Source: Linum tenue (lineage: Eukaryota > Streptophyta > Magnoliopsida > Malpighiales > Linaceae). Taken from it: a stretch of 64,000 nucleotides of DNA. Where the stretch lies: positions 29,609,633-29,673,632 of the forward strand of contig CAMGYJ010000009.1 in assembly GCA_946122785.1 (NCBI GenBank). The letters run 5' to 3'. The position numbers and the translations under genes were made by a program. Positions within the stretch are counted from its first letter, which is position 1. Every line of letters starts with the position of its first letter. The notes below the pieces were generated by a model. That model had not been told where the DNA came from, ran no database searches, and saw only the letters and a program-made list of their open reading frames with translations. This document shows positions 633 through 48,599 of the stretch, one piece after another.

Positions 633-638
633 AAAACT

Positions 639-8601: not shown

Positions 8602-8614
8602 ATACCCCCTCAAA

Positions 8615-9417: not shown

Positions 9418-9439
9418 ACTCCTCCACTGCCTTACTCCA

Positions 9440-11188: not shown

Positions 11189-14100
11189 ATGGTTGCCTTT
11201 GGGAAAAAGCTAAAGGAGAGGCAAATTCAAGAATGGCAAGGGTACGTTGCAGTCACATACTGTCACATTAATGCAGTTTGTTTGGTTGCAATGAACTTAA
11301 CGAGAAATTATATACCAGAAATTTCTCGTTCTAGTGTAAAAAATGAAGGAGTCATCTCTTTCTTTTGATGACTTTGATATCTGTAGTCACTCTCTTTTAT
11401 GGAAACAGTTTGCAAGAGCGATGGTATAATTCTGTTATGTCCTTAAAATTTTTGTCATCTATTTATTGAACTTGTAAGGTTTCCAATTTATTTCTCATTG
11501 AAATTCACAAGGAAGTGCCCTTTACTTTGTCTTTACAGTTTCCTTATGGTATTTGTTTTTTCCTGTTCAGATACTATATCAACTACAAATTGATGAAGAA
11601 GAGAGTGAAACAATATGGCCACCAAATTGAAGTTGGAACACTAGATCGGCGCCATGTTCTCAAGGACTTCTCGAGAATGCTTGATTGTCAGGTACTTATT
11701 AATGCATGAGAGTCTGATTATGCTTTTTGTAATTGGCTATCTCTAGAAAATTTAGATTACGTATTCACTGATCTACCAATTACTTCAGATTGAAAAGATA
11801 GTCCTGTTTCTGTTGGAGCAACAAGGGCTACTTGCAGGAAGGATAGCCAAGCTTAACGAAGATCAGGATGCTCTACAACAAGAGCCAGATATAGCGAAGC
11901 TATCCCAGTTGCGGGAAAATTATAGGGATGTCGGGAGGGACCTTTTGAAGCTTCTTTTCTTTGTTGAAATAAATGCTGTGGGCCTGCGTAAGATCCTGAA
12001 GAAGTTTGATAAACGTTTCGGTTATCGATTCACCGATTACTATGTGAAGACTCGAGCTAATCATCCTTATTCCCAGCTTCAGCAAGTGTTCAAGCATGTG
12101 GTAAAATGCCACTCATACGCATTATCATATGATTCTGCCAGAGATTGATTACAGATCCCAAAGTGGGACTGTCCTTCCCATCCAAGTCTTGTTTAACTTA
12201 TTACTGGAAGTGCAGGGTCTTGGGGCAGTTGTTGGAGCCATATCCCGCAATCTTCATGAACTTCAGGAGCATCAAGGAAGTTTCTTATCCATTTATGATC
12301 AATCTGTGCTTCCGCTTGAGGTTATTGTTTGCTCCTTTCTGTTTAAGTTTTGAGTTTGTGATATCAAGTTGTGACAGCACTCACATGGCCAAAGACTGAT
12401 AGTAAACATATCTCTTAACAGGACTCTGTTGTTGATGCAATGAAAGCGGCAGTTGACCGGTTAAGCCACTCAACCAACTTCTTGAACTTCTTGGCACAAC
12501 ATGCACTTATTATGCAAGAGGAGCTTCCAACTCCCATTGAGGAGAGCATTGATGATAAGAGATACCATTTTATGTCTCTTATCCTGAATCTGGCAAACAC
12601 ATTCCTTTATATGATAAACACCTATATTATAGTACCCACAGCAGATGACTACTCCATGAGCCTTGGTGCACCGGCAACAGTTTGTGGTATTGTGATTGGA
12701 TCAATGGCTGTTGCTCAAGTCTTCTCTTCAGTATACTTCAGTGCATGGTCCAATAGATCATACTTCAGGCCTCTTGTGTTCAGCAGCATCGCTCTTCTGA
12801 TCGGAAATGTCATGTATGCAATGGCTTATGATTTCAAGTCAATCACAATACTTCTGTTAGGCCGGCTTTTCTGTGGGTAAGTAATTATTCAACTCCTGAA
12901 TATATATCTGCTTATTGTGTACCAAGAAAAAAAAATCAGGTCTATTCTCCTACTGTTTTTTTATTTTATTTTTGTAATTGTTAAACTATCAGTAAGTTAA
13001 TATGGCTCAGAGGGCTCTGAAGCAAAAAGGTTGGCAACTGCAATATGATATTATGAAGTCACTTAAATCTCATTAGTGGACTGATGTTAGCGCGCCAACT
13101 GGTTCATTATTGCTTTGATGTTACAGTAAATTACTCCTTGTACTGCAGGTTGGGTTCTGCTAGAGCTGTGAACCGGCGTTATATCAGTGATTGTGTGCCA
13201 CTTAAGCTACGTATGCAAGCTTCAGCAGGTTTTGTTAGTGCAAGTGCTCTCGGGATGGCCTGTGGCCCGGCTCTTGCTGGCTTACTTCAAACGGAGTTTA
13301 AAATTTACAAGTTCACATTCAATCAGAACACTTTACCAGGCTGGGTTATGGCTGTGGGTTGGTTCTTTTATATGATATGGCTGTGCATCTCATTTAGAGA
13401 GCCTTTTCGCCCGACACAAGATACCAATGTAGCTCCACAAACCAGTGATGGTAAACTTCTCCCCATTCCATGTATTGCATACATAATGTCATGTTTGTTT
13501 CATCTCAATCAATAATAATCTACTGCCTGCCATTGCTTGGGTCTGTTATCTTGGTAGAAGGCCACTACTTGTTTTCTGCATCTCTTACAGATAAAAAAGC
13601 TTATAACCAATGTTACACAACTCTGTAAGTTCAGATTGTGAGTCTAAAATATTAATTAAACATGGGGTACCTAGAAGCTTGTGTGAAGGAACTTCATGCT
13701 TAAAGAAACTTTGTGGAAGGATAAGTTATATGATATGATTTTCTATATATCCATAACTTGATAATTGAACTTGCTTTTTACAGTGAGTCTATTTGTCATA
13801 AGATATTCCATTTTAATTTAAATTTCAACTAATTCTAGTTCTTAAATTCTAGTCTATTGTTATATCAGATGGATTTTTAAATGAAAATGCAAAAGGAAAA
13901 TGATGACAGTTATGCCTTTTACTACACCAGGCATAAATTCTGCCAAACCATTTGGTTTAGCTTCAGCTTAAGTAACTCATAAGTTGGTATAGATAGCCCC
14001 ATATTTGGTTTAGCTTCAGCTTAAGTCACTCATAAGTGGGATAGACATCCCCATTATGCTTATACTCTGGTCCTTAGACTCTGCATGAGATTTACAGTTC

Positions 14101-15196
14101 AGTTGCTCAATCACCCGAATACTCGCTCTTCGATAATAATTTTGGTCTCGTGTTGAAAGCAGAACCAACGAGAAATGATGCTCTTGAGAAAGGTCTTCAG
14201 CAGCCATTGCTACCAAGTACAGAAGCCAATCAAGATGATGAAGATTGTGGGAGTGATGATGAATCTGAGGGATCCAGAGGACCAGCTAACTCACTTCGCT
14301 CTGCTTATAGGCTATTGACACCTTCTGTAAAGGTAAGATGAAGATGTATCTCTATACTTTATGAAACGTACAAGTGTTTTTTAACAACTTTATTTTTTAC
14401 CATTTGATAACTCTCTTGCCTGAATTGCAAAAACAGGTTCAGTTGTTAATATATTTCATGCTCAAGTACGCCATGGAGATTTTATTATCAGAGTCTAGTG
14501 TCGTCACAACGTACTACTTCGGTTGGTCTACTAGCTCAGTGGCAATATTTCTCGCCTGCTTAGGCCTCACTGTCCTTCCAGTGAATATCATTGTTGGAAG
14601 CTATATCAGTAACATGTTTGAAGATAGGTATAAGCCCATTATCTCTTCTGTCTTCCGGGATTCAATTCTATCTTGGTAGCAGCTCGAAATCATCATACTG
14701 ATTACCATTTCTTCGTCGTTGATCTCATTGGCAGGCAAATCTTACTAGCATCAGAAATCATGGTCTGTGTAGGCATACTCCTAAGCTTCCACATCTTAGT
14801 TCCATACACCGTGCCACAATACGTGTGCTCAGGACTCATTATGTTTGTCTCGGCCGAAGTACTAGAAGGTAAAGTATTCTACTCCCTTGCAATGCGAATT
14901 CAGTACTGTCATGATGAATTGAGCTTACTTGGTAACTTACTGCATACCTACTTCCAGGCGTCAACTTATCGTTGCTCTCGCGAGTCATGTCATCGAGGCT
15001 CTCACAGGGAACATACAACGGTGGACTACTCTCGACGGAGGCAGGTACCTTAGCTCGTGTGGTGGCAGACGTAACAATCACAATGGCGGGGTACTTGGGG
15101 CAGAAAACGCTGTTGAATGTGACTCTTCTACCTTCCCTTGTCATTTGCATAACCTCCATCCTCGCCACGTGCTTCACCTACAACTCGCTATATTGA
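11189..15196 (+). CDS. PHT5: Vacuolar phosphate transporter, SPX-MFS (PHT5/VPT) family
   Basis: Ten exons join in frame through GT-AG sites: 11189-11241, 11571-11691, 11789-12100, 12216-12320, 12422-12876, 13149-13450, 14163-14332, 14437-14627, 14735-14868 and 14958-15196, giving 693 residues, the usual family length. Residues 1-162 form the SPX domain, which senses inositol pyrophosphates. The basic cluster is present: Y19/Y20, K24, K27-K28 and the helix [10 protein letters not shown] (125-134). From about 247 a major facilitator domain begins ([19 protein letters not shown]), split by an acidic Asp/Glu/Ser-rich loop at about 465-490; the second half ends TCFTYNSLY. The family imports phosphate into the vacuole across the tonoplast. 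The ATG was chosen because [18 protein letters not shown] is the conserved SPX start. No break is visible. Which paralogue (PHT5;1 to 5;3) it is cannot be said from sequence alone. Confidence 0.95.
13950..14055. repeat. 53-bp tandem duplication in intron 6 of the transporter
   Basis: ATTTGGTTTAGCTTCAGCTT begins at 13950 and again at 14003. The two copies continue AAGT(A/C)ACTCATAAGT(T/G)GG before diverging slightly. The intron is otherwise normal and ends GAAAGCAG at 14162. Confidence 0.85.
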
Positions 15197-16235: not shown

Positions 16236-16284
16236 TCTACAAACAAATTTTTGTTTTGGACCCATTTCCCCAATCATTTTTAAG

Positions 16285-16740
16285 CAAGGTTGTCAACCCG
16301 CTGGCTGACCTGGACCCGGTCGAGCTAGTGGGTCCAGGGTTAATGGGTCAACCGTTTTAGCCCGGTTTGGCCCGAAAATATGAAAAGAGTCATTATATTG
16401 TACTTATCCTGATAAATTATATAAAATCTTATCTAACATATGAGTTATAATATATAATATGACACCAAAATAACATATCGTACTTAGATCCAACATATAG
16501 TGAAAATTCACACACACTTATATAACATCAATATTCAAATGTTCAACTTACGATTCCAAAGATTGAGTTAGGCGAAAAGAAAAATCGAAAAATAGGCGCA
16601 TTTCGCAAACTAAAGAAAAAAATGACATAATTTGACCTCAAACCCGATACCTTGTAGTAGTCGACCCAACTGGTGCGTGCGGCCCATTTTTCTCATCGGG
16701 TCAGGGTCAAAATCGGTCGACCCATGGGTTGACAACCTTG
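16285..16740. mobile_element. TIR element (456 bp) cutting off the end of the Ulp1 gene
   Basis: Both ends carry CAAGGTTGTCAACCC in inverted orientation (16285-16299 and 16726-16740). GC-rich subterminal words (GGTCGACCC, CCGGTT) flank an AT-rich centre. I could not find a matching TSD (TTTTTAAG against TTGATATA), so the superfamily is open; the TIR resembles hAT-like MITEs. It abuts the Ulp1 catalytic domain and supplies that frame's last codons and stop. Confidence 0.75.
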
Positions 16741-17084
16741 TTGATATAGTTCAAGTCTGCCCATCTGGTTTTCCAATTTCGCTCCCTCTTTCCTGCCCAA
16801 AACTCAATGAAGTTCAAAGCAAAAACACCACATGAAATATAGTCGTTTTGTCTGAATCCAAGATCGAAATTCCAAGGGAACTCTTCAAAGTTGTATATCC
16901 TGTTAACCTCCCACCCAACGAAAGCCTGGACATATTTCACCAACTCCCTTCCTATGGTCTGATAGCGCGAATCATCCCAATCATGTTGCAGACTATTCAT
17001 CAATTGAAACTCCTTGTGCAGTAAATCAATGCAGTACACGACATAGTGATTGCCAACACAGAGGGGAAAGAACCACTGCACGAC

Positions 17085-17455
17085 AAGTGAATACATAACA
17101 TGTTAATAATATTCATTCATTTGTTAATAACAGGCGTGGTATATATTAAAAATCAAAGTTACTAATAGATATTAATAATCTCATCTTTTGTACGTTGTTA
17201 CTAATAATTATTAATAATGGCGGTTAATTTGTTAATAATGGCGGATAACTTGTTAATAATAGTCGAAAACCGTATTAATAACCAATGTCACGGCAAGTGA
17301 GTACATAATATGTTAATAATATCCATTCATTTGTTAATAACAGGCGATATATATATTAAAAGTCAAATATACTAATAGCTATTAATAACCTGTTAAAAAA
17401 AGGCGGATAATTTGTTAATAATAGGCGAACACCATATTAATAACCATAGTACGTA
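17085..17455. repeat. Tandem duplication of about 210 bp in the last intron of the Ulp1 gene
   Basis: CAAGTGAATACATAACATG at 17083 recurs as CAAGTGAGTACATAATATG near 17293. Both are followed by TTAATAATAT(T/C)CATTCATTTG and TTAATAACAGGCG. The unit is itself made of TTAATAA-(T/C)-GGCG words. The copies differ by scattered changes. One copy of the acceptor region is used by the last exon. Confidence 0.8.
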
Positions 17456-18599
17456 TAAAAGAAGGGATAGGATACATACAAATTGGCATTTCGTGAATGT
17501 CTTGTCTTCCAACCATGGGTACAGGAGGAATTCATCAATCAATGTATTGCGGTATTCTTGCTGAGTCAATTCCACCGGTGCCTCTTCACCAGGTTTTAGT
17601 TGTGCTAACTTCTCATCCATTTTTACAATTAGTGTTTGCTGCAAAACAGAACGATAGAAGGATGGGGTTAGCCACAATGGTCAAGAAAATTATGGAGTTA
17701 AAAGTTTGGGTAATACACTTACAACAAATAGGCATGAGAAAATCCATCTACCGACCACCCCATTGGTGTTACGAACCTCGACACGGTTGAGAAAATCTAA
17801 ATAACAATCTATAAAGCTATCCTCTATAAAGGAACCAGGATTGTTGATTTTGTATCCATCTTTGTGAGGGAAATGGTGTTATCCTGCAGCTTCCTCAACT
17901 CTTCATTCCTATATGGGGAAATAGAAAACATCAAGAAATGGTGGATTAGTAAATACAAAATTTGGTAGAGAAAATATATATATTGAAATCGGAGGCGTGT
18001 AAATAGAAGTGTACCATTCCCCTGGACCTTGCCAAGCATAACAAAGTGCCAGGTCCTCTCATAAATTCCCGTCAATGTAGAAAACATCGATAGGTTTTGG
18101 TTTAGCTCGTGACGCTTCTCCTTAGCAGGCACTTCTTCAACACCCTCATGTTGCTTCTCGTTAGGAGGTACCTCTTTCGAAACATCAACTCCCTTCTCCT
18201 TAACAGGTACAACTTTAGCAACTACCTTGGATTGATTTGCAGTGAATGGCGTCCTTACATATTTGGACTTTTTGACATCCCTCTTAGGCCTGGTTTCAAA
18301 ATCATCATCTGAGGGTACAACTAGGGGCTGAGATCTCTTCTTTCGTTTGTATACACGAGTCTTCACAGGTTGGTCCACTATGTACTCTGCAGCACCTCAA
18401 AATTGGCAATAAATAATTAGGTGTGCAGGTGTTAAAAATCCATTCATTTTGAATAATAATGAATAAGCAGCATGTTAATAATCAAAGCACAGTTCACATT
18501 CTTTAATTCAAACATGAGGCACATAATTGTTTCTAAAAAAAAGTGTATACAACGAATATATTTCGGAATTAGATTACTTACCGACTGTATCATTGTTTG

Positions 18600-19000
18600 C
18601 ACCAATACCAGATAATCCTCGTAGCTGGGACGCAGATTCATGGTCAGACGCAAGCCCCAGTTGAGATGCATTGACACCTCCCTTATCCTTTGTTACTGAA
18701 AGATTCAGATATGATTAATAATAATCATGCCAATACAGATGACGGGAGAAAACAATTTTATACGGAGCAAACGTGCTATTTGAATCATAAATAAGAAGTA
18801 TCTAACCAACATCGTCGTTTTGGGATAGAGACTCATGGTCAGACGCAAGTCCCTCTTCAGATGCATTGACACCTCCCTTATCCTTTGTTACTGAAAGAAC
18901 CAGATACGATTAATAATAATCATGCCAATATAGATGACGTGAAAAACAATTTTATACGGAGCTAAACATGATATTTGAATCATAAGAAAGATGTATCTTA
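18600..19000 (-). repeat. Tandem exon-intron duplication in the Ulp1 gene
   Basis: Two copies of a roughly 195-bp unit each hold an AG acceptor, a coding block (VTKDKGGVNAS-EEG/QLG-LASDHES) and the following intron. The blocks have GTTAG and GTAAG donors. The copies share GAACCAGAT/GATTCAGAT, GATTAATAATAATCATGCCAATA and TTTATACGGAGC in the intron. The repeat would have added a Ser/Asp/Glu-rich segment to the protein. Confidence 0.75.
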
Positions 19001-20639
19001 CCAGAAACGTCATTCTTGGATAGTGACTCATTCCGGCCATGAGATTCCTCATCAGAATCCGACGATTCAGCCCCACGCTTATCAAGCTCAACCTTACAGT
19101 CTCTGATTACACGACGTAGCAAGATAGCTTGACTACACAACACATCTAGTGACATACATGCATTGTCCCGCATAGCCACAATCTAAATGTATAAAAAAAT
19201 GTAACTAATTAATAATGGGGAATGACAACTGTTATTAAAATGTATGTTAATAATGTTTGCATAATGGTTAACAACAGTGAATATGATAGTTAAAATCACA
19301 ACAAACGTATTAAAATTAATATAAGAACATACCTTATATTGAAATTTGGTGGAACTTACCTCGCTAGTTTCCATGTGGTCAAGCCTCAAGCACAAGGCCC
19401 CAAAAATGGATCCCGACCCCAAAGAACCCTCATGCTCTTCCTCATTGTCACGCATCACATCCGCCCTTACCTTCCTAGCGATTTCCAATACTTCAGGCTG
19501 GGTGGTAGCTACTGTATTATCCTCCTTCGTTGTAGTGCCAAAAAAAGTCTTAGTCATAGGCTGAGAGGTCTTGAGTATGGGCACAGCTCGTAGTTCACTA
19601 GCATTCCGCAGCACCTCTGACTTGCGTGTTGATACACGAGAATCTGCCCAATACGAACAACTGGGGATCAATGTAGTCATAAACCCCTCTCTACCAAGGA
19701 CACTTGTCCGATCCAGAAAAGCACAAATGAGGAAGTGAACATCCCCCTCCACGTACTTCCTCGATTTATTTTTCATAAAAGCCGCACGCAGGCAACTGAT
19801 CATATGCCCACACCAGTTGTACTTGGTAAACTCGTCAACTAAGCGTCCCCTCATAAATCCCAAGTACTGATGACCCGCATTCCATTGGGGTCTAGCAAAT
19901 ATCCAATTGTCAGGAGGATGCACATTTGCACCCACGATTGGTCGTCATCAGTCCTATGCATAACTTCTTTCAACTTCACATTCTCTGGGCTGACACGACG
20001 TATGCCCAGACGTTCTGCCCACTTTTTAGAGGTAGGCGCTTGAAAGTAATCAAGTTGAGGAGAATTAGTACCCCGAGGCAACCCATAAACGCGTGCAATA
20101 TCAGACTCTGTGATGCGTAAACTCTGCCCGCCTGGCATACTGAAAGACATATTCCGGTGATCGAAATGTTGTGCAATCATCCTCAAGTAATCCTGATCAA
20201 TGTTGTGCATCGTCAAATTCAACACAAAACCAAACCCATACCCCTGAATTAGAGCAGCTCGAGCCGGAGTAATATTTTCCACCATCTTTATAACCTGAGA
20301 CATACTACATCTGTGGCTGAGTCTATCTCCATTATTTTCAACTGACTCGGTCAGCTTTTTCTCAGATGTTTCTTTGTTCGGCACAGTCTTACGGGAGGTG
20401 TTTTTGGTTCGAGCCATGATGTTGATAACCTACGTAATTGACATTAAAAAAACGGTGAATCAGATTGTTAACAACATGTAAAGTTTCATTATAAAAATGA
20501 TGCACGAAAATGTTAATAACACATTCAATTTATGTAAAATAAATTTCATGATTTAATTAAAATGCTAATAATAAAAATATAAGAAATACTACCCACGTTA
20601 ATGACCTAAACCATTCTGATTAACGATAACGATAATAAC

Positions 20640-20815
20640 TGTACTTATTATCGGTTAACATTAGATAATAATAATGTTAATAACACGTTAATATGTTAAC
20701 ATTAGATAATAATAATGTTAATAATAATGTTAATAACACGTTAGATAATATTAATGTTAAAAACACGTTAACATTAGATAATAATAATTTTAATAACACG
20801 TTAATACCCAAACAT
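20640..20815. repeat. AT-rich minisatellite (AACACGTTAACATTAGATAATAAT-like)
   Basis: About four to five degenerate units of GTTAACATTAGATAATAATAATGTTAATAACAC follow each other upstream of exon 1 of the Ulp1 gene. They contain many copies of TTAATAA and ACGTTAA. The same TTAATAA words fill that gene's introns. Confidence 0.8.
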
Positions 20816-20829
20816 AAAAAACCACATAC

Positions 20830-21060
20830 CTGCCGTGAAGCTACGGGGAGATGAAGACCGCCGTCGATAGTTTGTCGGGATAAACTCCTCAAAGTCTGGT
20901 CGCCGTCAATAGTTTTGTCTGGTCGCCGCCTGGTGACTGCCTGGTCGCCGATGAAGCTACGGGGAGATGAAGCCCGCCGTCGATAGTTTTGTCTGGTCGT
21001 CGCCGGGTCGCCGCCTGGTGACTGCCTGGTCGCCGCCGAAAAAAGAGACGTGTCGCCGGC
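20830..21060. repeat. GC-rich tandem duplication, about 115 bp
   Basis: GAAGCTACGGGGAGATGAAG and GCCTGGTGACTGCCTGGTCG each occur twice (near 20838/20953 and 20928/21016). The words TCTGGTCGCCG and CGTCGATAGTTT recur between them. This GC-rich block contrasts with the AT-rich sequence on both sides and may be the 5' leader or a terminal region of the transposon that carries the Ulp1 gene. 21061-21342 is AT-rich with no feature. Confidence 0.7.
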
Positions 21061-21916
21061 CGTTGTTCAGCAACTCACCTTCTTACGTAAAAAAAAAAAA
21101 CCTAAAGTGAAACTAATAAAACCCTACCGCATGCTACGTGAATAAACGGCAGGTAATTAATTAAAATACACTCATTAATTAATTAAAAATTTCTAATGCC
21201 AAACTACCCTTACCTACCTAAAAACGGCTCAACAACCATTAACTAATATCAATCAATCCAATGGCCGAAAATCACTTAAGGAACTCCTTAAGGATTTGAC
21301 CTTAAGGGCCTGAACCTATCTCTAGTATCGTCATATAGCAATATGGGTTGCAGCAGCGGTAATGTTGGCCGGCGCCGGCGGAGCAGTTCCATCTTTGCTG
21401 CTTACTCTTTTTTATATTTTATTTATGAATTGCATTTCTTTTTCGACGCTCCAATTCCAACTGACCGGCCAACTCATACTCTCTCCTTCTTCCTTGGATG
21501 CACTCTCTCTGCCTCTCAGCAAGGTACCTGTCTATATATCTTACAAATTTCATCACAGAATTATATATGAGATGCAAAATTTTCGAAAAGACATCAATGC
21601 TACAAATTTTAGGCCCTGATTAGTATTATTGTTGGTTTTTGGTTGTCTGTGTTACAGCTATAAAAAAAGCAGGGACTAAAATACGTGTTAAGTTAGATTT
21701 TTATTTTTGTTGTGCAATAGGTTGTGACAACTAGATCCAAATCAAGGAAACCAGGATTTATAGCGTTTTGTTGCCCATAAATTTATGATATTTAGCTTAA
21801 CTATTATTTAATAAATTTGGTTAAATGCTTACCAAAAATTGTGCATACATTCGCTCATATGCCTGCATATAGTTTAACAAAATTCATCCAAAATCTCATT
21901 TCAGTGCACTAATTTC

Positions 21917-23746
21917 ATTTTGTGGCAGCTAGAGAAACGGTTAATAGCCCCGCTTCAGGGATGGGCTCAACGCTCATTGTCTGTGGCAGCTAGAGAAACA
22001 CTGATCAAGTCTGTGGCTTCTGCACTACCGCTGCATGTGATGTCCTGCTTTAAGCTGCCCCTCTCTCTTTGTCGAACTTTGGATAGGCTGGTAGCGCGTT
22101 TTTGATGGGGTGTGGACGATGGTCACTCTCGCATCCGTTGGATGTCTTGGCGTAGGATGTGTCAGAGTAAGCATGAGGGTGGAATGGGGTTTCGTAGATT
22201 TGAGTTCTTCAATCAAGCGCTTCTTGCTAAGGTTGGCTGGCGGATTCTGACTGATCCCTAGTCCCTCCTAGCACAGGTGTATAAAGGGAAGTATTTTCCT
22301 CGTGGTGACTTTCTTTCTGCGACTCCTCGCTCTCGACCTTCATGGGGGTGGCAGAGTATCCTGTATGGGAGGCAATCGTTGGTTCCGGGTATTAGATGGT
22401 AGATTGGGGATGGGCGAGGGGTGGCGGCGTTGACAGATAATTGGATTCCCTCGCTCCACCCTGATCCCCCCAGGTTTAATCATCGGATTCTTGCTGAGGG
22501 AATGGGTTTGAAGGTGGCTGAGTTCATCTGTCCGACTGAGGGGTGTTGGTTACTGGATAAGCTTGGGGAATGGTTCCCTCCTAAGGTCTGTCGTGCTATC
22601 CGTGGGATTCCTCTGGCCAGAAGGGAGATCGATGATAAACAGGTCTGGCATGAGACAGGTGATGAGATTTTCACTGTGAAATCTGCGTATCACCTGGCTG
22701 TTCGCCTGGATCAGCAATCTGGAGGTTGGCGCCCGTTGGTGAGTTGGATGGACCGGGGAAGCTGGAAGCGGGTGTGGAACTTGGCTATTTCGCCTAAGTT
22801 GAAGGTGTTTCTATGACAAGTTCTGCATAGGTTCCTCCCCACAACGGAAGCTCTCATTGGCAGGAAGGTGGATGTTCATCCTCGTTGCCCGGTGTGCTGG
22901 GCTGCGTAGAAACTATGGAACATCTATTTTTCGACTGCTGTGTGGCTCGTGTTTTGTGGGATTTAACGGGGTTAGAGCATGTGGGCCAGGGGTTGCCTCG
23001 GCTCACTTTTCCTCTCTTCCTCAAGAACCTTTTGGCCATCGTTAGGAACCTTCCCAGGTCATGGCAATTGTAGCGGTACTCTGAAGGATCTGGAAGTCTC
23101 GAAACTGGGTAGTCTTTGAGGGCAAGCAGTTTGGGCTACAAGCCCTTCTTCGGCAATATCACCAGCTAGTGCGGGAGTGGGATTCGCTTCCAAAGGAGGG
23201 TGTGGGGTATGCCCCTGTGCGGGTCACCTCCGATGTGCCACCTGGTAGCCAGAACCAACTCATTTGTAGGTGGGATGGGGCCGTGAGGTTAGGGTCCCAT
23301 TCGGCCGGAGGGGTGGTGCTGCTAAGCCCGGACGGGGCGGTGGTCGGTGCGAGGGGGGTGTGTTTTCCAGAGGTTGATGAACCAATGCTGGTAGAGGTGT
23401 TGGCCCTCAGGGAAGCAATCCTCTGGTGTCGGAGCAGAGGCTGTCTCTTGGTCCGTTTTGAGCGGGATGCGAAGGTGGTGGTGGATAGACTTCTTTTGGC
23501 TTAGGGGAGTGATAGTACGGCGGGTGCTATTTTCCGTGAGGTGTTGCTCTACTTGGCTGAGAATGCGGGGTTTAGTGTTCAGTTCGTTGGTCGGCGTAGT
23601 AACAGGGTAGCCCATTTGGTGGCTAGAAATGCCCTTTCTTTGTACCCGATAGCGAGTCGTTCTTTTGATTTTGTAGCCTGGTTGAGGCAGGCGATGTAAT
23701 GATCTATTTTTGAGTATCAATATATGATTATCTTTTGTAAAAATAA
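21917..23746 (+). mobile_element. 5'-truncated L1-type LINE with 14-bp TSD
   Basis: AGTGCACTAATTTC flanks it at 21903-21916 and 23747-23760. The body encodes the end of the reverse-transcriptase ORF in plant L1 order: SVAARETLIKSVASALP, GGMGFRRFEFFNQALLAKVG, the zf-RVT region (WKRVWNLAISPKLKVF, PRCPVCW, ETMEHLFFDC), then an RNase H domain (CRWDGAVRLGSHSAGG, EVLALREAILWC, FVGRRSNRVAHLVARNA). Several stops and shifts (for example near 22104, 22260, 22815) make it inactive. The tail is A-rich (TTTTGTAAAAATAA). It lies in intron 1 of the GMC pseudogene. Confidence 0.93.
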
Positions 23747-23924
23747 AGTGCACTAATTTCGTTAAAAATAGACTTCAATTTATATTGGTCAAAATAAGAC
23801 AAATTTAAAGAAATCGCCACGAGTTTTATCTTGGTATCATTCGTGCGATTAAACAGGTCAGAATTACACTTTCGTCAGCGACGCTGAAGATATCGTACTA
23901 CGACTACATCATCGTGGGAGGAAG

Positions 23925-24592
23925 CAGTGACAGATCCAAAAATTTTACATAGGAGTGTCCTCTTAAAACATAAATTAAATAATTTTTAAATAAGAAAATA
24001 TCTGACTCGTACAAGTTAAAAAAGTCCACGATGTGTTTTCATATTCATAAATAATTGTAGAATACACTTTGTGTCTACAATGCTAACAAAATTTCTCTGC
24101 ATATCCTACTAGACAATCATTCACGAAATGATGGCATATTCGATTTCTAATCTTGTTCTTGATGTAACCCAAAGCTGAAAAAGACTCTTTCAACACTTGT
24201 CGTACAACCATAAAAATAATACAAATTAAGGGTAGCTTGAGATTAGTTTAAATATTGTTAGGTTTTAAAAATAATTAGGGAATGACATTTTACTATTAGA
24301 CAGTGTTTAAAATCAAACAACAAATGAGTTGTAATTTAATGGAAATTATATTTACTAATAATAATAATAATAGTGTTCTAGGTTTGAATTATCCAAACTA
24401 CCACTTATATTCTCATACGCAAACTAAAAATGAGAGTAGGATAATCATTTTTTCAAATTATAAGGGTGTCCCCTACTATCAATTTATATATTTTTTTTGT
24501 CCATACATAAATTACCATAGGGGTTGAACAATCGTATTTCCGAAATTTAGGGGTGCCCCGGGACACCCCAAAGTCCCCTTGGTCCGCCCCTA
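23925..24592. mobile_element. hAT-like non-autonomous element in GMC exon 2
   Basis: The ends (CAGTGACAGATCCAA and, inverted, TAGGGGCGGACCAAG) form an imperfect TIR like a common plant family that starts AGTGGCGGATCCA. The flanks GGAGGAAG (23917-23924) and GGAGCAGG (24593-24600) agree at 6 of 8 bases and may be the diverged TSD. The interior is AT-rich, with GGGTGTCC/GGACACCCC near both ends. No transposase frame is seen. Confidence 0.65.
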
Positions 24593-24600
24593 GGAGCAGG

Positions 24601-25576
24601 TTAGAGAGAACCCTCCTTAACTTAAGAGGCTCTATTAGAGATGGGGTTCCTTGGGCATTCTATGCCCCTAGTCTAGGTTAGTTAAAGGTCAAACCTCCTA
24701 ATTTGTATTAAACACTTAGAGTTTGGTTGTGGGTGGTCGTCCGAACTCCAATTCGAGGGTGAAGTCGAACCATTCCTTAGTCGATAGGTTAAGAGGGTCA
24801 CATCTGTGGCTTGGATCGTATCCCATTCCTCAACCTAGAGTCTAAGAGGGTAACTTTGGTTGCTTGTTAGACTTCCCAGTGGTTTATGACCCCCTAACCA
24901 CACACGGTCGTTCGATTCTTCAAGTCATAATTGTTAGCTAGGGGGAGCAACACCCGTATGAAGTTTTCTCAAATAGAGTCAAATCCATTTTACCTTTGCA
25001 AATTAATTTAGTTTTCAACCTTTGTTTTCACCAAAACTGATCCGCTAGATAATGTTTCAAATAGTCGAAGTAGCGGTAAATGGATCGGCCCGGGTCGATA
25101 TTTAAACATACTTGCCCTATATTGCACCCATCTAAGGTTAATACTTGAACCTTAGGTGAGATTTTATTGTGATTGTTAGAGCGAGTCAATCGTTGAGCCG
25201 TCATGAATTGACTTACCACTTGAACCGCATTGGCGATATCTGGCCGGGTACGCACCCGATACAACAGACTATCCAAAATACTCTGGTAGTGAGATCCATT
25301 TGAAAGCAACTCTCAATACGAAACCAGACTCTAATAACATGTCAAACTATACGAAACTGAAATTGAACACAAACACACACGATTTATGTGGTTGCCCCAG
25401 TTATAATAGCTGAGACTCGTCCACAGAGAAATCTTATTATAGCTGAGAAATCTTATTAGAGTTTTAGTCGCACAAATACAACCAAAGAGCTTAGTTACAC
25501 AAATTCGGGTACACTCCAAAGGTAAGAACCCTCTACAGTCGACCCAATTTAGTATAAATCTTCATCAAGTTTTGAC
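24601..25576 (-). mobile_element. LTR-retrotransposon remnant with Copia RT fragment
   Basis: On the minus strand, an LTR-like stretch (about 25568-25340, with CACGATTTATGTGGTTGCCCC) ends in TTGACA. A tRNA-Met-like primer site (TGTTATTAGAGTC) follows. Shortly after comes the end of a Copia reverse transcriptase (about 25309-25200): YQSILDSLLYRVRTRPDIA and VVSQFM. Most of gag-pol is missing between primer site and RT. 24601-25020 is unassigned and may be the rest of the element. A matching second LTR is not evident. Confidence 0.6.
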
Positions 25577-26502
25577 ATTTATCCCCAAATCGAGCAGATC
25601 GGTCAGCTGTCGACGCTGCCACCAAATCAGAGGACGCCGGAGGCCCTGGAGAGGGCAATTTACAACATGAGCAAGCTGGACAGAGCAGCCTTCAGGGGAG
25701 GGTTCATCCTCGAAAATATCATGGGTTCGATCTCAACAGGGCATTTGGAACTGACATCCAAGAACCCTAATGTAAACCCGTTTGTGACATTCAACTACTT
25801 CAAGCTCCCATAGGACCTGGCGAGGTGCGTTCAGGGGATGTCGACCATAGAGAGAGTGATTGGTTCTAAACCATTCTCCAAGTTCAGGTACAACACTTTG
25901 TCAGTCCCACAGCTGCTCAACATGACAGCAAGCGCACCTCGTCGGTGTCGTTGGAGCAATTCTGCAAGGACACTGTGATGACCATATGGCATTACCATAA
26001 AGGGTGACAGGTTGGTGTTGTGGTTGGTTGTGATTACAAGGTTCTTGGTGTTGATTCCTTGAGGGTTATTGATGGATCTATTTTTAACTAGCAATTTGCC
26101 CAGCCAGTTGGCCAGGTGTGCGTATTTCATATTGTATCACTAAATGCCATCCTGAATTTGTCATAATCGGTCTAATTTTATAAAAGAGAGCACATATACG
26201 CCTTTTTCGTTCTAAAGCCTTAATAACAAACCAACCACATTGTACATCCTCCCCTTCAATCTTCTCTGTCTCTGTCGCCTGCTCCGCCCTTTTTGAACGT
26301 AGTCCACTGTTAGGCAGAGAGAGGGGACTAAGGTCAGTCTACTTTCAAGTCGAGGGATACCTAAGCCAGCATGTTATCGGGCGATGTAGGAAGCCAATCA
26401 GGGATGCTTGCTTCGTGGATTTGAAAAATGAAGATTTTCGTATAACTTGGATTTTGAAAACCCATGGATATATGAGGGTTTTGGGTTCATTATGGATTTA
26501 AT

Positions 26503-26845
26503 AAACACCAATGTTTGTTTGATGGATTTCATGATGTATTTTGTTAATTAAATTTGTATGTATGAAGTAATACCTTTATTTCCCTCAATGATATAAGAAG
26601 AGAAAGCAAATATGTAGGGTAGGTTGGTAAAAAATGATGGACTTCAAAATTCATGATCAATTTCCACCTAAAGAGATGTGTTTTCAAGTCCATGGGGCCC
26701 TCAAAGTTCATGGGCCCCACAGATTTGTTACCGCTAAATACTTGAAGCCAACAATGGATTTTGTACAAAGTCCATCATGGATCCAAATCCATCACCAAAT
26801 CCTTCACCAAACCCATCAAGCAAACAACCCTTTATTGGGTAACTG
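26503..26845. mobile_element. MITE-like inverted repeat element
   Basis: TGTTTGTTTGATGGATTTC at the left and AAACCCATCAAGCAAACAA at the right form an imperfect inverted repeat. The interior is rich in ATGGA/TCCAT words that would fold back. A TSD is not clear. The small frames on both strands are products of the repeat. 26092-26502 and 26846-27290 show no gene. Confidence 0.55.
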
Positions 26846-27294
26846 TATCCAATGGTCTTGACTCATATTGGACCCAAATGAACTCATATGCACTCTTAAT
26901 AATTTTGGTTCTGGGTTGAGTTTGAATTTTGGTTTATTTTGTTATTGTATAAGTTTGACAGATTTGGTTATGATATTGTATTCCATAATTAAGAAAACAA
27001 TAGATCAATTTGGTTCAATAATTACTATAATAACCATTTGAACGCTTCTATTTAAGGAGGAGAAGATGGCAAGGAATAGTGTGAGAAGGCGTGAGTTGAT
27101 AATTTCTTGAATGTGGACTTATATAGTATAAGCGCAATCAAGTTGGATGGTAGGAGTAGAATATTCAGATTAGGGATACCTAGATTCAGGATAAGAATAT
27201 AGTAAGGAAAACATCGATGTTGTATTATATAAAGCCTCCTCCTGGCCAAATTAGCAAGTGCATGATTGAGCCCTCTTCCCTTAAACACAATGTT

Positions 27295-27455
27295 TTAAAA
27301 CCGTATCTACTGTCTAGTTAGATCGGAAATATCAGGTACCAGAGCCCAACTTGTAAGCGGTTTTAATAGTATAAAGTAGCCAACACTTTTAGTACAAATT
27401 ACCCTATTACTGATTTTCAATACAACCTCCGGTGTAGTTTTCAATTTTTGCTTAA
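27295..27455. repeat. Dispersed repeat, copy 2
   Basis: This is the second copy of the repeat at 16040-16235 (GCGGTTTTAATAGTAT, AATTACCCTATTACTGATTTT, TACAACCTCCGG). About 27456-28556 beyond it is AT-rich and unassigned. Confidence 0.6.
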
Positions 27456-28556
27456 ACAAAGAGACAATATAATTGCACAACCCAAAATGGTAAATAATTT
27501 TTTTTATAGATACGAGTAATATATTTTTAATTCATTATAAGGTGTTACTTGAGAAATTCGAACCAAACCTTGAGGTTGGAGTCTTTTAATATAAAGAGTT
27601 ATAAGATTATACTCATATTATATAATATTCGTTGGGCACATATTATATAATATTCATATTGCTAGTCTCGGCTTGAGAAATTAGCAAATTAGGTACTTTT
27701 TTTAAGAAAGGTCAAATATATACTCTTTTAGTTCCCCGATTATTGTTTAACAGGCTTTTAATCGGCCCATAAAAAACAACATATTGGGTATTAGTTCCTC
27801 GTATTGAATTAATATATCATTTTAGTTTATGGTTTGTCAAAAATGCCCCTCAGCTAATCAGGGTTGCTTTCCGGTGGGTGGCTGAGATGGCATAAATCTT
27901 ATTTACACTCCTGTATATATATTTGTGTTGATGATGCCTCCCCTGGGACTAACACTAAAGCCACTGTCAGTCTGTCATGATGCTTGGAAGGTGAGAAGAG
28001 AAAGTTGTGTAGTGTATTAGAAATGGATCTACTTTGTATTTGTTTGTGGATTGTGTTAAGTGTTTGGGGTCATTTGTTTGGTCTTTGGTGTGCAGGTACA
28101 TGGGAGTTACTATGCTGACTGAAAGGCTTGCAAGTGCTTAAGAAGGCTTGAAATAAGTTCTCATATAGTTGTTGGGAAGCTGGCCAAGTGATCAATAGTA
28201 ACCCTTAAGACATATTAGTTTGGTATCATGCTTATGAAATTAATGAGCATCTTGTCCTCTCACTTTTAAGGGGTTCATATATTTGCTTCTATCCTGTTGC
28301 TGTGACCTAATTCTATAATGTAGGTCTGATACTGTTGTAATTCTAATTTAATGTCAAAATTAATTTTTTTATTACATTAATATTTTGAGATCACGAATCT
28401 AATGATGGTCGGTCGTATCTAAACCGTAAATGTACTCTATAAAAAAAAAGACAGAAAATGGACTGCCTTACCATACTTTCCCACTGTTCCTAAAAAATTT
28501 GATGAATCTCATCCATCAACCCCAGTTGATTATGGTTGTCACTGTTGTCCTTTGAC

Positions 28557-29211
28557 GGATCTGGCGTTCACGAAACTGGGTTGTCTTTGAGGGCAAGCAG
28601 TTTAGTATTCCAGCTTTTATGTGACAATTCCACCAGCAGTACCAGGAATGGGCCAGCTTGCCGGTAGATAGAGGTCATCAATCTCCTATTCAACCAATGG
28701 TGATGGCCCCAGATTGCCCTATAATATGTATGCGGGATGGGGTAACCAAAGTTGCATCTCATTCGGCTGGTGGGATGATTGTCAAGAATCAGGCTAGGGA
28801 GATTCTCCTTGCTAAAGGGGTTCAGTTCATTGGGATTGATGATCCATTGGTTGTTGAGGTTCTCTCTCTTTCCGGGAGGCTATTCTCTGGTGCAGGGCTT
28901 CCGGGTTTACGGAGGTACGCTTTGAAGGAGATGCTAAACTGATTATTGATAAGGTTAACCAATCAGATACCAGGGATAGCCGGATAGGTGCGCTTCTAAA
29001 GGAAATTATGGTATGCTTGGAACTTCAGAATGAGTTCTCTGTGCTATTTGTAGGTAGGAGTAGTAATAGCCCACTTGGTGGCTAAAAAAATCATTCACTT
29101 ATACCCGACTACGAATTGTTTTATTATTATTTTATGGCCTGATTAAATTTTAGGATGTAACTATCTTCATCGGATCAATATATTGATTACCATTTGTCAT
29201 TAAAAAAAAAA
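28557..29211 (+). mobile_element. LINE 3' fragment with RNase H and poly(A) tail
   Basis: It encodes WRSRNWVVFEGKQF, then the RNase H start CMRDGVTKVASHSAGGMIV, VVEVLSL and FVGRSSN, with frame breaks, and ends CAATATATTGATTACC followed by AAAAAAAAAAA near 29200-29211. It belongs to the same family as the LINE at 21917. The sharp left edge suggests 5' truncation. No TSD was found. Confidence 0.85.
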
Positions 29212-29550
29212 AGAATTAGAGGCAATATGACATGTGATATGCGGTATGCCCTTCCTTCATCAGCGCTGCCAGCCTAACTAAGATTGAGTAGAGAGAAGAA
29301 AGTGGAAAGATATGAGAAAGGTAATTAAAGAAAGAGCATCTATTGCTTCCTCCTGCATATATCCACATTGGCTTTTTTTCTCCTCTTTTCCTCATCTCTC
29401 TGAAAACATCTGTTGAGCAATATATATCACAATAGGGCTCTCTCTCTCTCCTTATAATTTTATTTTGGAGATATGAAAATTTTCAAGGAATGGCGTGGAA
29501 AACAGGCCAAGGATAACTCTTGTGAGTCTCTTACCCCAAAAGATCAGATT

Positions 29551-29558
29551 GGATATCC
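29551..29558 (+). promoter_or_regulatory. P1BS element 1 (PHR-binding site)
   Basis: GGATATCC matches GNATATNC exactly. PHR-family MYB factors bind this palindrome to switch on phosphate-starvation genes. It lies about 86 bases upstream of the MIR399 TATA box. Confidence 0.8.
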
Positions 29559-29569
29559 ATTATCCAACA

Positions 29570-29577
29570 GCATATGC
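29570..29577 (+). promoter_or_regulatory. P1BS element 2 (PHR-binding site)
   Basis: GCATATGC is a second exact GNATATNC match, 19 bases after the first. Paired P1BS sites close to the TATA box are typical of strongly phosphate-responsive MIR399 promoters. Confidence 0.75.
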
Positions 29578-29643
29578 TTCCCAATAATCCCTTGTCCTTG
29601 GTTTATTCTTTTGTGCTAGCTGTAGGCACCCGGGCCTTAAATG

Positions 29644-29649
29644 TATAAA
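29644..29649 (+). promoter_or_regulatory. TATA box of MIR399
   Basis: TATAAA precedes the hairpin by about 65 bases, placing transcription start near 29675. It follows the two P1BS sites on the same strand. Confidence 0.65.
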
Positions 29650-29710
29650 ATCCTCTGTGCCCTCTCTTTACCACACTGCCTTCAGAGACATATCACAATT
29701 TATTAGTAAG

Positions 29711-29830
29711 TGAACTAGTCGTGGGGATACTCTCCTTTTGGCAGGTCGGTTGCAGTATTTACTGGGTCACTCATTTTCTTCCCTGATGGATGACCCGCCA
29801 AAGGAGAGTTGCCCTTTGACTTCTTCAGCT
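29711..29830 (+). ncRNA. MIR399: MIR399 precursor hairpin
   Basis: The mature 21-mer CGCCAAAGGAGAGTTGCCCT(T) lies on the 3' arm at 29796-29816, the arm used by all miR399 genes; family members typically read TGCCAAAGGAGANTTGCCC. The 5' arm (about 29724-29745, starting GGGATACTCTCC and ending TTGGCAGG) pairs with it almost fully, with one bulged T at 29739 and mismatches near 29727-29728 and 29743. It resembles known miR399 star strands. AGTC at 29717-29720 pairs with GACT at 29818-29821 and extends the stem. The loop (29747-29792) can form a small stem, GGGTCA with TGACCC. miR399 guides cleavage of PHO2 mRNA and moves from shoot to root under phosphate starvation. The first base C instead of T is a minor variant. 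Confidence 0.93.
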
Positions 29831-29849
29831 TAAGGTACGTGTAGCTAGA

Positions 29850-31227: not shown

Positions 31228-31314
31228 TAATAGTAATACCTCTACTAAAATTTTAGATTGTTAAAATAGTTTTGAGGAGATTGTTGGATTCCTTTTCTGT
31301 TCCAATTGTACCCC

Positions 31315-32271
31315 TGATAAGTCCCAAACCTCGAGCTAAGCTTTTGGTTGATCGGATTTGGGGCTCGTATGAACAAAAACAAGGAATTGGTAGGATGGAG
31401 ATCGATCGTACAACTTCGCTCCAAGAATTGGGAAGGGGCTCGATCGATTAAGGTCGCAACTCGCCCACAATTGAGGTGATTACTCAATTGATGCAGAGCT
31501 CGCTTGATTGATGGAGTCCAATCCACGCAAACAAGGACAATTCACGAGATCAAACTCTATGAACAAAAGTAATCTTCGAATAAAACTTGATTTCAATTAC
31601 AATGCTCTCGACGCTTAAATAAACTCTAGCTAGGTGTATCTAATAAGGAAAAGAAATCCTACAACGATTAGAACTCAAAAAGAAACCAAACTAACAAGGA
31701 AAGAACGTAAATTTCCTAAAAGTCCACTAATCCTAATCCTATACGCATTCGGATTACAGCTTCCCAAAGTGAGAAATTGCAATCTCGATACGATCTTTAG
31801 CCTCTTCGCACGAGTGCTTCCAGAACCTAAACCACTTATCCAATTCCTTGTCGTTGTAGCCTGATATCTGCACTTTGATGTGGAACAAACCTCGGAGACG
31901 GATTCCCAGCCAATCGTCCAGAATCGAGTCTCAAAGTGACCTCCTTGATCACGCATCCTGCCTTAGCCAAATCTGCCAGGAATTCCAGTTCTGCCATACA
32001 CTTTTGGATCTCCTTGAAAATGGTCTTCTGGACTTGAAACTGAGCTTCCAAGCATACCATCATGTAGAAAAGCATATTAGGTTCAAAAAAAAAAAAAAAC
32101 CCCACCAAGCTCCCACTTTCATCAAGCCATGCGTGCCGACCAAACTCACAAAGTACCCTAGCTGAAATCAGTAAAGGACTTATCCAATTTTGATGGTCTC
32201 GTTTCTTGATCAAAGCAACTTTTGTTTCAATGCACTGTAGCTTATAGGGGGGTGTAATTGAGATCATATAA
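31315..32271 (-). repeat. 3' LTR of the short Gypsy element
   Basis: It starts on the minus strand as TTATATGATCTC (the other LTR has TGATATGATCTC, so the terminal G is mutated) and ends GACTTATCA. A longer A-run at about 32087 distinguishes it from the 5' copy. Confidence 0.85.
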
Positions 32272-32732
32272 GGCCCCCTCTCTTGAAAAAGTGTTGCCCT
32301 CAACACTTCAACCTTCCTCTGCTCAAATCGGGCACAAAACTGAGCCCAGATTGGATCGAAAGTTGCCTGCCATAACTCTCTTTGCTGCCAGATGAGGTCA
32401 ACAGTGTTATTGAAGACAAAAATTGGGGCTTTCGAATCAACGCATGCCCAGCTGAATTCTCCTGGTCCGAGAGCTTCGCCATACTTCAAATCGTCGTCCT
32501 GGATAGGTCGGGAGGCTCGATTCATCATTATCGCCTTCGAATTGATCCGATCGTTTTCCCCGCCAACGTTAACCTTCAAAAACGAAGAACCCAGAATTGT
32601 TGATGTCGAATTGGGCGTTTGCTCCGTGGGTATCTCCAGGTTGAATTGATTACTTTCACACGTTCCTGGGATCATCAGCAACTGTCCTGCACCGGCCCCT
32701 AGCGTCGAATCATCATCGTTCGTTCCACCCAA
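31836..32732 (-). CDS. Unrecognised ORF crossing the polypurine tract into the 3' LTR
   Basis: The frame is 298 codons, open from MGGTNDDDSTLGAG to a stop inside the LTR. It has LIWQQRELWQATFDPIWAQF and a possible coiled segment (EQRKVEVLRATLFQERG). Its C-terminal half is encoded by the LTR, and the 5' LTR keeps a matching but shorter frame (35372-35776). I recognise no domain. It may be a fused remnant left by loss of pol, or a chance frame. Confidence 0.3.
   Translation of the reverse strand: MGGTNDDDSTLGAGAGQLLMIPGTCESNQFNLEIPTEQTPNSTSTILGSSFLKVNVGGENDRINSKAIMMNRASRPIQDDDLKYGEALGPGEFSWACVDSKAPIFVFNNTVDLIWQQRELWQATFDPIWAQFCARFEQRKVEVLRATLFQERGPYMISITPPYKLQCIETKVALIKKRDHQNWISPLLISARVLCEFGRHAWLDESGSLVGFFFFFEPNMLFYMMVCLEAQFQVQKTIFKEIQKCMAELEFLADLAKAGCVIKEVTLRLDSGRLAGNPSPRFVPHQSADIRLQRQGIG
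32272..32288 (-). other. Polypurine tract of the short Gypsy element
   Basis: The minus strand reads CAAGAGAGGGGGCC immediately before the 3' LTR, marking second-strand synthesis start and confirming minus orientation. Confidence 0.75.
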
Positions 32733-33082
32733 TAGACCCGATTTTTGTTCGTAGTTGCCCGTTTCCAGACAAGTTTAGCGCGAATTGGATCCATCAATCC
32801 CGCATCAATCGACTCAATCCAAACAGGGGTGGAGCTTTCCAGGGTGTCGTGGATTGAAACGATGTTTTTGGTCAGGTTCGAGGTGGCCTCGAATGCTCCA
32901 ACCCATTTTCCCTCTCTCACACTCTGCTTCTTCGACCACCTGCAGAGGCAACAACGCCGCGGCGCCCTTACCCTCTTGAAAACAGTGAGCATGAACCTTC
33001 GAGTTAAGAGCGTGATGCCTCAATGATCGTCGAGACTCACCGAATCAGATCCTCCGTTTAATCTTCGACGACCTGCTACCAA

Positions 33083-33625
33083 TTATTGCTGGTCTTCTCG
33101 AGCCTCTGCTGGCGTTAATGGTTTTAGCAGGATACTCTTTCCACCATGCCGAACTTTATAACAGTTGGTGTCGCCATAATGGCCGACGCCTCTGTCAAAT
33201 TTCCAAGGGCGGCCCAAAAGAAGATGGGTGGCTTGCATTGGCGCGACATCAAACTTCATCTCGTCCTTGTACTCTCCATTTTCAAATTCCACAAGAGTTT
33301 GCCGCTGAACTTTCATCACACCATATTCATTTAACCAATGTAAGTTATATGGCTGTGGATGCCGAGTTGTGGTCAATCCCAACCTGCGAACGACGTCCTC
33401 GCTAACGACATTAGCACAACTACCGCCATCGACGATTACAGATGGCAATTGCCCCTTGACACAGGAACGAGTCTGAAAAGGGTTTTCGCGTTGGTCTGCC
33501 TCAGGATGGCTTGTAGTTGTTAGTGCCCTTCGATTGACAGTAAACAACTTGCCCGGTGGCGGAAGGATTTCGGCCTGGATTTCTTCGTCGATCTTGTCCC
33601 CATCAGAATCGCTTACAGTTTTCAC
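33083..33625 (-). CDS. Gypsy aspartic protease
   Basis: The frame contains RENPFQTRSCVKGQLP, the active site VIVDGGSCANVVS (DGG in place of DTG/DSG, normal in some plant Gypsy lineages), LGLTTTRHPQPYNLHWLNE and HLLLGRPWKFD. It processes Gag-Pol in the particle. No stop is visible, but the RT region that should follow is absent. Confidence 0.85.
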   Translation of the reverse strand: MKTVSDSDGDKIDEEIQAEILPPPGKLFTVNRRALTTTSHPEADQRENPFQTRSCVKGQLPSVIVDGGSCANVVSEDVVRRLGLTTTRHPQPYNLHWLNEYGVMKVQRQTLVEFENGEYKDEMKFDVAPMQATHLLLGRPWKFDRGVGHYGDTNCYKVRHGGKSILLKPLTPAEAREDQQ

Positions 33626-33689
33626 CGGGGCTTCCTCCTCTTCAGAATAGTAATCCCCATCCCTAAGCAGTAAGCACTAGTGCCTTTCG

Positions 33690-34795
33690 ATTTGGACATT
33701 GATTCACCTTGTGCCCACGACCAAAGTATTTAAATCACTGGATTTGAGCACTAGAGCCCTCATTCTTGGCTGGGGTACTGCGAGCTGCTGGCTTCTCGAT
33801 CTCAGCTCGTAATGGGGTCGAAACCAGAGCTGGGAACTGTGCCTGAGCTGGCATTGCTAGAAGATTGAAATCGTCTACTAGTGGCGACCTTGAGCTGCCT
33901 TTCCACTTTGATGGCTAAGTGAACAACTTCCTCTAGTTCAACGAAAGCTCGTAGCTCAACCTCCTGGCGAATCTCGCGGTTTAAGCAATGAAGAAAACGC
34001 GCAATTGTTGCCTCTCGATCTTCTCAGACATCGGCGCGCATCATGAGTAATTCAAACTCACGATAGTAGTCTTCAACGGAACGGACACCTTGCCTTAATC
34101 CTTGCAACGTCTCATGTAAGTCCCGCTGATAATAACCAGGAACAAACCGGTCGCGCATAAGACCTCGCAACTCCGTCCAAGTGGTCACCTCTGGATGGAG
34201 GTTTTGTCAACGTCGGAGCTGGGTCTTTTCCCACCAATGTACTGCATAGTCAGTGAACTCATAGGTGACGAGGGACACCTTCTGATGCTCTGAGTATTCC
34301 CTGCATTGAAAGAACAAGGTAATCTTACGCTCCCAGTCCAAATACATGGAGGCTTTGTTCGTACCAGAAAATGACAACACTTGCTGTTTAACGCCTCTTA
34401 GCTCGGCTACATTGTGCCCTTGTCCTGCTCCTGGTGGGGCAACTCGAGATTTCCCTAAATTTGATTTCGTTCAGGTACCTGATCTTCCCCTGCAACGTCC
34501 CTCCACTGAACAGGGATGTTTACAGTTGTTCGAATTTCGGCCAATTGTTGGTTCAGATTGTCGAGCTAGGTTTGAATCGTAGCGTTCTGTTGTGCCAGAA
34601 TCGTCTGCAGCAACTCCGCGAGACCAGCCTGCTCCGTCATGGCAGGACCTTCATCAATCCCAACCCTCTTCTCTGTAACGGATTTCTTCTTCTTCCCCTG
34701 TGATGTTATCAGAACAGCAGCAGGGTCACAATCCGTTGGACCCTTCGATCTGGTCCACCTTGTTGGACCAGCGCCGCCTTCCGTTGACGATGTTA
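33690..34795 (-). pseudogene. Gag of the short Gypsy element, with stops
   Basis: The minus strand encodes an N-terminal Gln-rich segment (MTEQAGLAELLQTILAQQNA), a TAG at 34568-34566, the retrotransposon Gag core (GTNKASMYLDWERKI, FTDYAVHWWEKTQL, MRDRFVPGYYQRDLHETLQG, GVRSVEDYYREFELLMMRAD, then a stop), and a zinc-knuckle remnant (FKYFGRGHKVNQCP, where the second Cys is Phe). It is decayed in at least three places. Confidence 0.75.
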
Positions 34796-34817
34796 TGAAC
34801 GCCACTGAGTAGAACCA

Positions 34818-34831
34818 GATTCTGATTACCA
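34818..34831 (-). other. Primer-binding site of the short Gypsy element
   Basis: The minus strand reads TGGTAATCAGAATC two bases after the LTR end. This is close to the initiator tRNA-Met primer site TGGTATCAGAGC, with one inserted A and one change. Confidence 0.7.
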
Positions 34832-34833
34832 CT

Positions 34834-35780
34834 TGATAAGTCCCAAACCTCGAGCTAATCTTTTGGTTGATCGGATTTGGGGCTCGTATGAACAAAAACA
34901 GGGAATTGGTAGGATGGAGATCGATCGTACAACTTCGCGCCAAGAATTGGGAAGGGGCTCGATCGATTAAGGTCGCAACTCGCCACAATTGAGGTGATTA
35001 CCCAATTGATGCAGAGTTCGCTTGATTGATGGAATACAATCCACGCAAACAAAGACAATTCATGAGATCAAACTCAATGAACAAAAGTAATCTTCGAATA
35101 AAACTTGAATTCAATTACAATGCTCTCGACGCTTAAATAAACTCTAGCTAGGTGTATCTAATAAGGAAAAGAAATCCTACAACGATTAGAACTCAAACAG
35201 AAACCAAACTAACAAGGAAAGAACGAAAATTCCCTAACAGTCCACTAATCCTAATCCTACACGGATTTGGATTACGGCTTCCCAAAGTCAGAAATTGCAA
35301 TCTCGATACGATCTTTGGCCTCTTCGCACGAGTGCTTCCAGAACCTAAACCACTTATCCAATTCCTTTTCGTTATAGCCTGAAATCTGCACTTTGATGTG
35401 GAACAAACCTCGGAGACGGATTCCCAGCCAATCGTCCAGAATCGAGTCTCAAAGTGACCTCCTTGATCACGCATCTTGCCTTAGCCAAATCTGCCAGGAA
35501 TTCCAGTTCTGCCATACACTTTTGGATCGCCTTGAAAATGGTCTTCTGGACTTGAAACTGAGCTTCCAAGCGTACCATCATGTAGAAAAGCATCTCAGGT
35601 TCAAAACAAACCACCAAGCTCTCATTTTCATCAAGCCATGCGTGCCGACCAAACTCACAAAGTACCCTACTTGAAACCAGTAAATGACTTAGCCAATTTT
35701 GATAGTCTCGTTCCTTAATCAAAGCAATTTTTGTTTCAATGCATTGTAGCTTATAGAGGGGCGTAATTGAGATCATATCA
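34834..35780 (-). repeat. 5' LTR of the short Gypsy element
   Basis: It starts TGATATGATCTC at 35780 and ends GACTTATCA at 34834 on the minus strand. It has clean TG...CA ends and matches the 31315 LTR over its whole length. Confidence 0.9.
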
Positions 35781-48060: not shown

Positions 48061-48147
48061 AGTAATAAAAAACATGATCAAATCACCTTTCAATTTTTGA
48101 TCATTTTTGCTTGCTCCTGATCCTTGTTCATAACCAGCCTAGTTATT

Positions 48148-48569: not shown

Positions 48570-48599
48570 ATTAACTTTCCCCGTTCATGACATGTTGAC

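Follow-up and report, generated by a model that had tools for sequence, protein, structure and literature searches.

The 64,000-nt stretch of Linum tenue DNA analysed here (the window) very probably contains a functional MIR399 gene, at 29551–29832. Judging from the sequence, we put the probability that it represents an intact flowering-plant MIR399 gene, acting through the phosphate-starvation pathway, at roughly 0.93. Four features together lead us to this reading: the identity of a 21-mer, the hairpin that contains it, the pairing of the star strand, and the layout of P1BS sites and TATA box upstream. The gene, unremarkable in itself, adds one member to a well-known family and is useful for annotating L. 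tenue. The interest of the locus lies mainly in a possible conserved neighbourhood with an SPX-MFS phosphate transporter gene. The elements of the predicted MIR399 gene are as follows.

29551..29558, no strand assigned: P1BS-type site GGATATCC, an exact match to the palindromic consensus GNATATNC
29570..29577, no strand assigned: P1BS-type site GCATATGC, an exact match to GNATATNC
29644..29649, plus strand: TATA box TATAAA, the only TATAWA in the window with two P1BS sites within 120 nt upstream (a limit set post hoc)
29707..29832, plus strand: predicted MIR399 precursor hairpin, bounded by the outermost MFE pairs; core stem 29717–29821
29724..29745, plus strand: putative miR399*, 5′ arm, 22 nt with one extra U; ends placed from a 2-nt 3′ overhang
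29796..29816, plus strand: mature miR399 CGCCAAAGGAGAGUUGCCCUU, 3′ arm; the same as mol-miR399a and miR399a, from which its ends are taken

Mature sequence and precursor hairpin

Members of the miR399 family have a mature sequence of about 21 nt, and one is found at 29796–29816 (+), where the window reads CGCCAAAGGAGAGTTGCCCTT. It differs at two positions from what we take to be the miR399b/c consensus. It also contains the window's sole match to a miR399 pattern with 18 bases specified, searched with up to three mismatches allowed; the match has one mismatch, and shuffles of the window gave a mean of 0.05 matches, with at least one in 4 of 100. AGO1 favours a 5′ U; the first base here is C, which counts against a MIR399 gene. 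In the published material available to us, Moringa mol-miR399a is the same at 21 of 21 bases (PMC4773123), a miR399a reported in nuts is likewise identical (PMC6704100), and the 19-base core recurs in 35 published papers. The mature sequence of grape vvi-MIR399I, CGCCAAAGGAGAGUUGCCCUG, begins with the same 5′ C and is one base apart, the last being G in grape and U here (PMC2831844, in the part available). Elsewhere in the 64-kb window, a search at up to six mismatches found no further miR399 copy except a six-mismatch match to the consensus at 3193, and a search at up to five mismatches found no miR399 target site other than the locus's own complement.

Folding of 29700–29835 gives −53.5 kcal/mol (z −5.1), with 0 of 200 shuffles as good. 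The trimmed stem, 29717–29822, folds at −46.4 kcal/mol, a value reached by none of 2000 dinucleotide shuffles, the best of which (−46.3) was just 0.1 kcal/mol weaker. The stem-loop carries the mature sequence on its 3′ arm, opposite a well-paired star. In the ensemble, 29797–29809 and 29812–29815 are paired to the 5′ arm with a probability of at least 0.98, and C29796, U29810, G29811 and U29816 of the mature sequence are not. In the MFE structure, C29796 does not face the star but forms a pair with G29764, towards the loop, which counts against a MIR399 gene. When the star is placed at 29724–29745, leaving 2-nt 3′ overhangs, 16 of 19 facing bases of the miR399/miR399* duplex pair, with one 1-nt bulge formed by the extra U in the star. 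A plant miRNA duplex may have up to five mismatches and asymmetric bulges of up to 3 nt in all, and the predicted duplex at 29724–29816 lies within these limits. An earlier note on this DNA had proposed a conserved miR399 sequence on the 3′ arm, a stable hairpin on folding of 29700–29835, and a well-paired star at about 29724–29745 with a likely 2-nt overhang. The first two are confirmed, the 21-mer being identical to a listed miR399a, and the pairing agrees with the third, for which the exact ends are predicted.

The same note remarked that the hairpin is intact with transposons on both sides, and we do find transposon-like remnants flanking an intact stem. One could suppose, then, that this MIR399 copy is decaying or silent, its expression having been lost as transposons closed in. 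The end of a LINE-like remnant lies some 340 bp upstream of the first P1BS site, an LTR-like element begins about 1.5 kb past the hairpin, and the star arm carries a 2-nt internal loop in addition to its extra U. However, a gene free of selection would be expected to have lost some of its mature sequence, stem, P1BS sites and TATA box, whereas here the mature sequence is unchanged relative to the listed miR399a, and the stem, both P1BS sites and the TATA box are all intact. We regard such decay as improbable.

Stability of the hairpin was rejected as proof of MIR399 when taken alone, because other loci in the window fold as well. In a scan of 8520 folded segments of 110 nt, the hairpin stands on line 14 among the best 25 loci, tied with the 13th; the higher-ranked loci include G+C-rich ones as well as a plain inverted repeat with lower G+C at 47641–47750. 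The existence of such equally or more stable hairpins could suggest that the putative precursor is a chance or transposon-derived inverted repeat with an accidental miR399-like 21-mer, an idea we find hardly credible, given that the 21-mer has one mismatch to a pattern with a chance mean of 0.05 even at three, that arm, duplex and promoter all suit a MIR399 gene, and that self-comparison of the window (pieces of at least 60 bases, E ≤1e-8) reveals no repeat covering the hairpin.

Promoter, strand and proposed action

The two exact P1BS sites start 93 and 74 bases before the TATAAA at 29644, in agreement with the earlier note, which had placed two exact GNATATNC sites 70–90 bases before a TATA box. 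Transcription would be expected to start near 29670–29680, about 25–35 nt downstream of the TATA box. By itself, GNATATNC occurs in the window at chance level (15 found, 16.7 expected), which counts against its significance, so the sites count only as a pair beside the TATA box and hairpin. Of the window's 202 TATAWA sites (98 plus, 104 minus), that at 29644 is the only one preceded by two GNATATNC at a distance of up to 120 nt, this limit having been chosen after the sites were known. In the part of PMC6296076 available to us, GNATATNC is given as the PHR1 site, and eleven MIR399 promoters of Arabidopsis and N. benthamiana are tabulated, each with one to three P1BS sites; all but that of Arabidopsis miR399c (10 of 11) have a TATA box. 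The window's layout, with both predicted P1BS sites upstream of the TATA box, is thus the family norm. The description of it as a complete phosphate-starvation regulatory unit can be kept in part: mature sequence, arm, duplex and promoter layout all fit MIR399, and completeness is a presumption.

At the gathering score, Rfam gave no match anywhere in the window, which counts against a MIR399 gene. At a relaxed threshold, RF00445 (MIR399) matched 29712–29826 weakly on both strands, with 33.2 bits on the minus strand and 31.7 bits on the plus strand (E = 3.8e-5 for an 801-base stretch), short of the gathering score of 57. We regard that score as a threshold for annotation, not as something by which the family is defined, and the locus is therefore still filed as MIR399.

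Rfam's preference for the minus strand (33.2 versus 31.7 bits) invites the view that the hairpin is transcribed in that direction, its reverse complement also being MIR399-like. The minus-strand fold has −43.1 kcal/mol, its 3′ arm, CCTGCCAAAAGGAGAGTATCCC, resembles miR399, and minus-strand TATAWA sites are present at 30120, 30412 and 30827. Yet this arm departs from miR399 by an extra A and by other changes, while on the plus strand the listed sequence is exact; none of the minus-strand TATAWA sites has two P1BS sites within 120 nt upstream, and the nearest GNATATNC on the promoter side of that strand is at 37028. Minus-strand transcription of the hairpin seems to us extremely improbable. What settles the plus strand is not Rfam but the promoter motifs and the occurrence of the exact 21-mer in the 3′ arm of that strand.

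DCL1, AGO1 and PHO1 have roles in the miR399 pathway. If the plus-strand MIR399 gene acts as others of its family do, low phosphate would bring PHR1-type MYB factors to the two P1BS sites and promote transcription from the TATA box, DCL1 would dice the hairpin, and the 3′-arm 21-mer would guide AGO1 to the PHO2 (UBC24) mRNA, leading to its cleavage. With PHO2 down, PHT1 transporters would no longer be degraded and phosphate uptake would rise; PHO1 would also be spared from degradation, increasing root-to-shoot phosphate movement. The steps involving PHO2, PHT1 and miR399 are established (PMC7941915, in the part available). What the window itself shows is a mature sequence, a hairpin, the promoter motifs and a neighbouring SPX-MFS gene; that this gene is induced, its transcript diced, and the 21-mer loaded and directed at PHO2 is inferred from the known family.

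The neighbouring SPX-MFS gene

11189..15196, plus strand: SPX-MFS (PHT5/VPT-type) phosphate transporter gene, 10 coding exons, 693 aa

Exon edges of this gene were picked by eye and then joined; all nine introns are GT..AG, and the frame is open to the stop. An SPX domain (51.9 bits) is followed by an MFS domain (MFS_1, 78 bits) in the one 693-aa protein, both over the Pfam cut-offs, and the SPX part matches 5ijj_A. Proteins of this class are PHT5/VPT vacuolar phosphate transporters, with AtPHT5;1 being At1g63010 (PMC4821872, in the part available). As read from its coding sequence, the gene is complete and is predicted to encode a vacuolar phosphate transporter of this type. At up to five mismatches, neither miR827 (in what we take to be its sequence) nor a miR827 target was found in the 64-kb window. 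GNATATNC is absent from positions 1 to 16892, a range that covers the gene.

The SPX-MFS gene lies 14.5 kb upstream of MIR399, on the same strand. Arabidopsis locus numbers follow chromosome order, so that At1g63005 and At1g63010 should adjoin. The former is miR399b (PMC7909446, in the part available), whose number comes directly before that of PHT5;1; an SPX-MFS gene neighbours MIR399 here too. Arabidopsis MIR399B belongs to the same mature family and has a promoter with a TATA box and two P1BS sites, as here (PMC6296076, in the part available), although its mature sequence (UGCC...CUG) differs from the window's in the first and last base. Unlike at the Arabidopsis locus, 14.5 kb with transposon fragments separate the two genes in the window. 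The Arabidopsis numbering, together with the SPX-MFS neighbour here, suggests that the pair may be ancient neighbours, and the simplest reading is that an old MIR399–PHT5 neighbourhood may have been pulled apart here by transposon insertions. We entertain only tentatively, at a little below even odds, the fuller proposal that the two are ancient neighbours kept both here and in Arabidopsis despite the transposon-filled gap, and perhaps make up a conserved phosphate locus with shared regulation or chromatin. Should eudicots in general share the linkage, one MIR399 copy would be identified as old, and co-regulation of the two genes could be put to a natural test.

A literature search, with supplements and subscription papers outside its scope, found no published statement that MIR399 and VPT1/PHT5 adjoin. 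The grape VPT1 (PHT5;1) gene is VIT_202s0025g04540. In the available parts of the sources, the miR399b paper (PMC7909446) does not mention VPT1, PHT5 or SPX, the source for At1g63010 (PMC4821872) does not mention miR399, and a Citrus paper on miR399 gives no positions; the chromosomal position of grape MIR399I was likewise sought and not found in the literature consulted.

Transposon-like elements between and around the genes

The following transposon-like elements lie between the two genes or beside MIR399.

16707–17096: Ulp1-type peptidase frame, Pfam match; presumably transposon-borne
23085–23501: RNase H-type LINE piece, Pfam match
28858..29212, plus strand: LINE-like remnant, with an RNase H-type frame at 28858–29082, then an 11-A run
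31309..35778, minus strand: LTR-retrotransposon-like direct repeats, 31309–32269 and 34827–35778, about 960 bp each and 94.2% identical; downstream of MIR399

Between the SPX-MFS stop and the first P1BS site (15197–29550) there are 39 open frames of at least 75 aa. A Pfam scan of all 39 gave three matches, each transposon-like, and nothing for the other 36. The frame at 16710–17102 was scanned as its ATG-started ORF, 16707–17096. A further host gene between SPX-MFS and MIR399 was considered and rejected, none appearing among these 39 frames, a scan that has short-exon genes outside its reach.

Within the LINE-like remnant, RVT_3 scores 28.3 bits against a cut-off of 21.6. The search for its target-site duplication gave only unconvincing A-rich 14-mers with two mismatches, at 16030, 16031, 19540 and 24267. 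For the LTR-like pair, no target-site duplication was seen by eye; between the repeats, on the minus strand, there is a weak match to gag-asp protease, below the cut-off.

Farther downstream, the inverted repeat at 47641–47750 is very stable (−53.6 kcal/mol, G+C 0.44), has cggtataccg-type motifs, and looks like a small foldback element. Another inverted pair, 48135–48581 and 53851–54306, is 90.8% identical over 457 bases, each member having internal inverted similarity; a foldback element may be present here in two copies.
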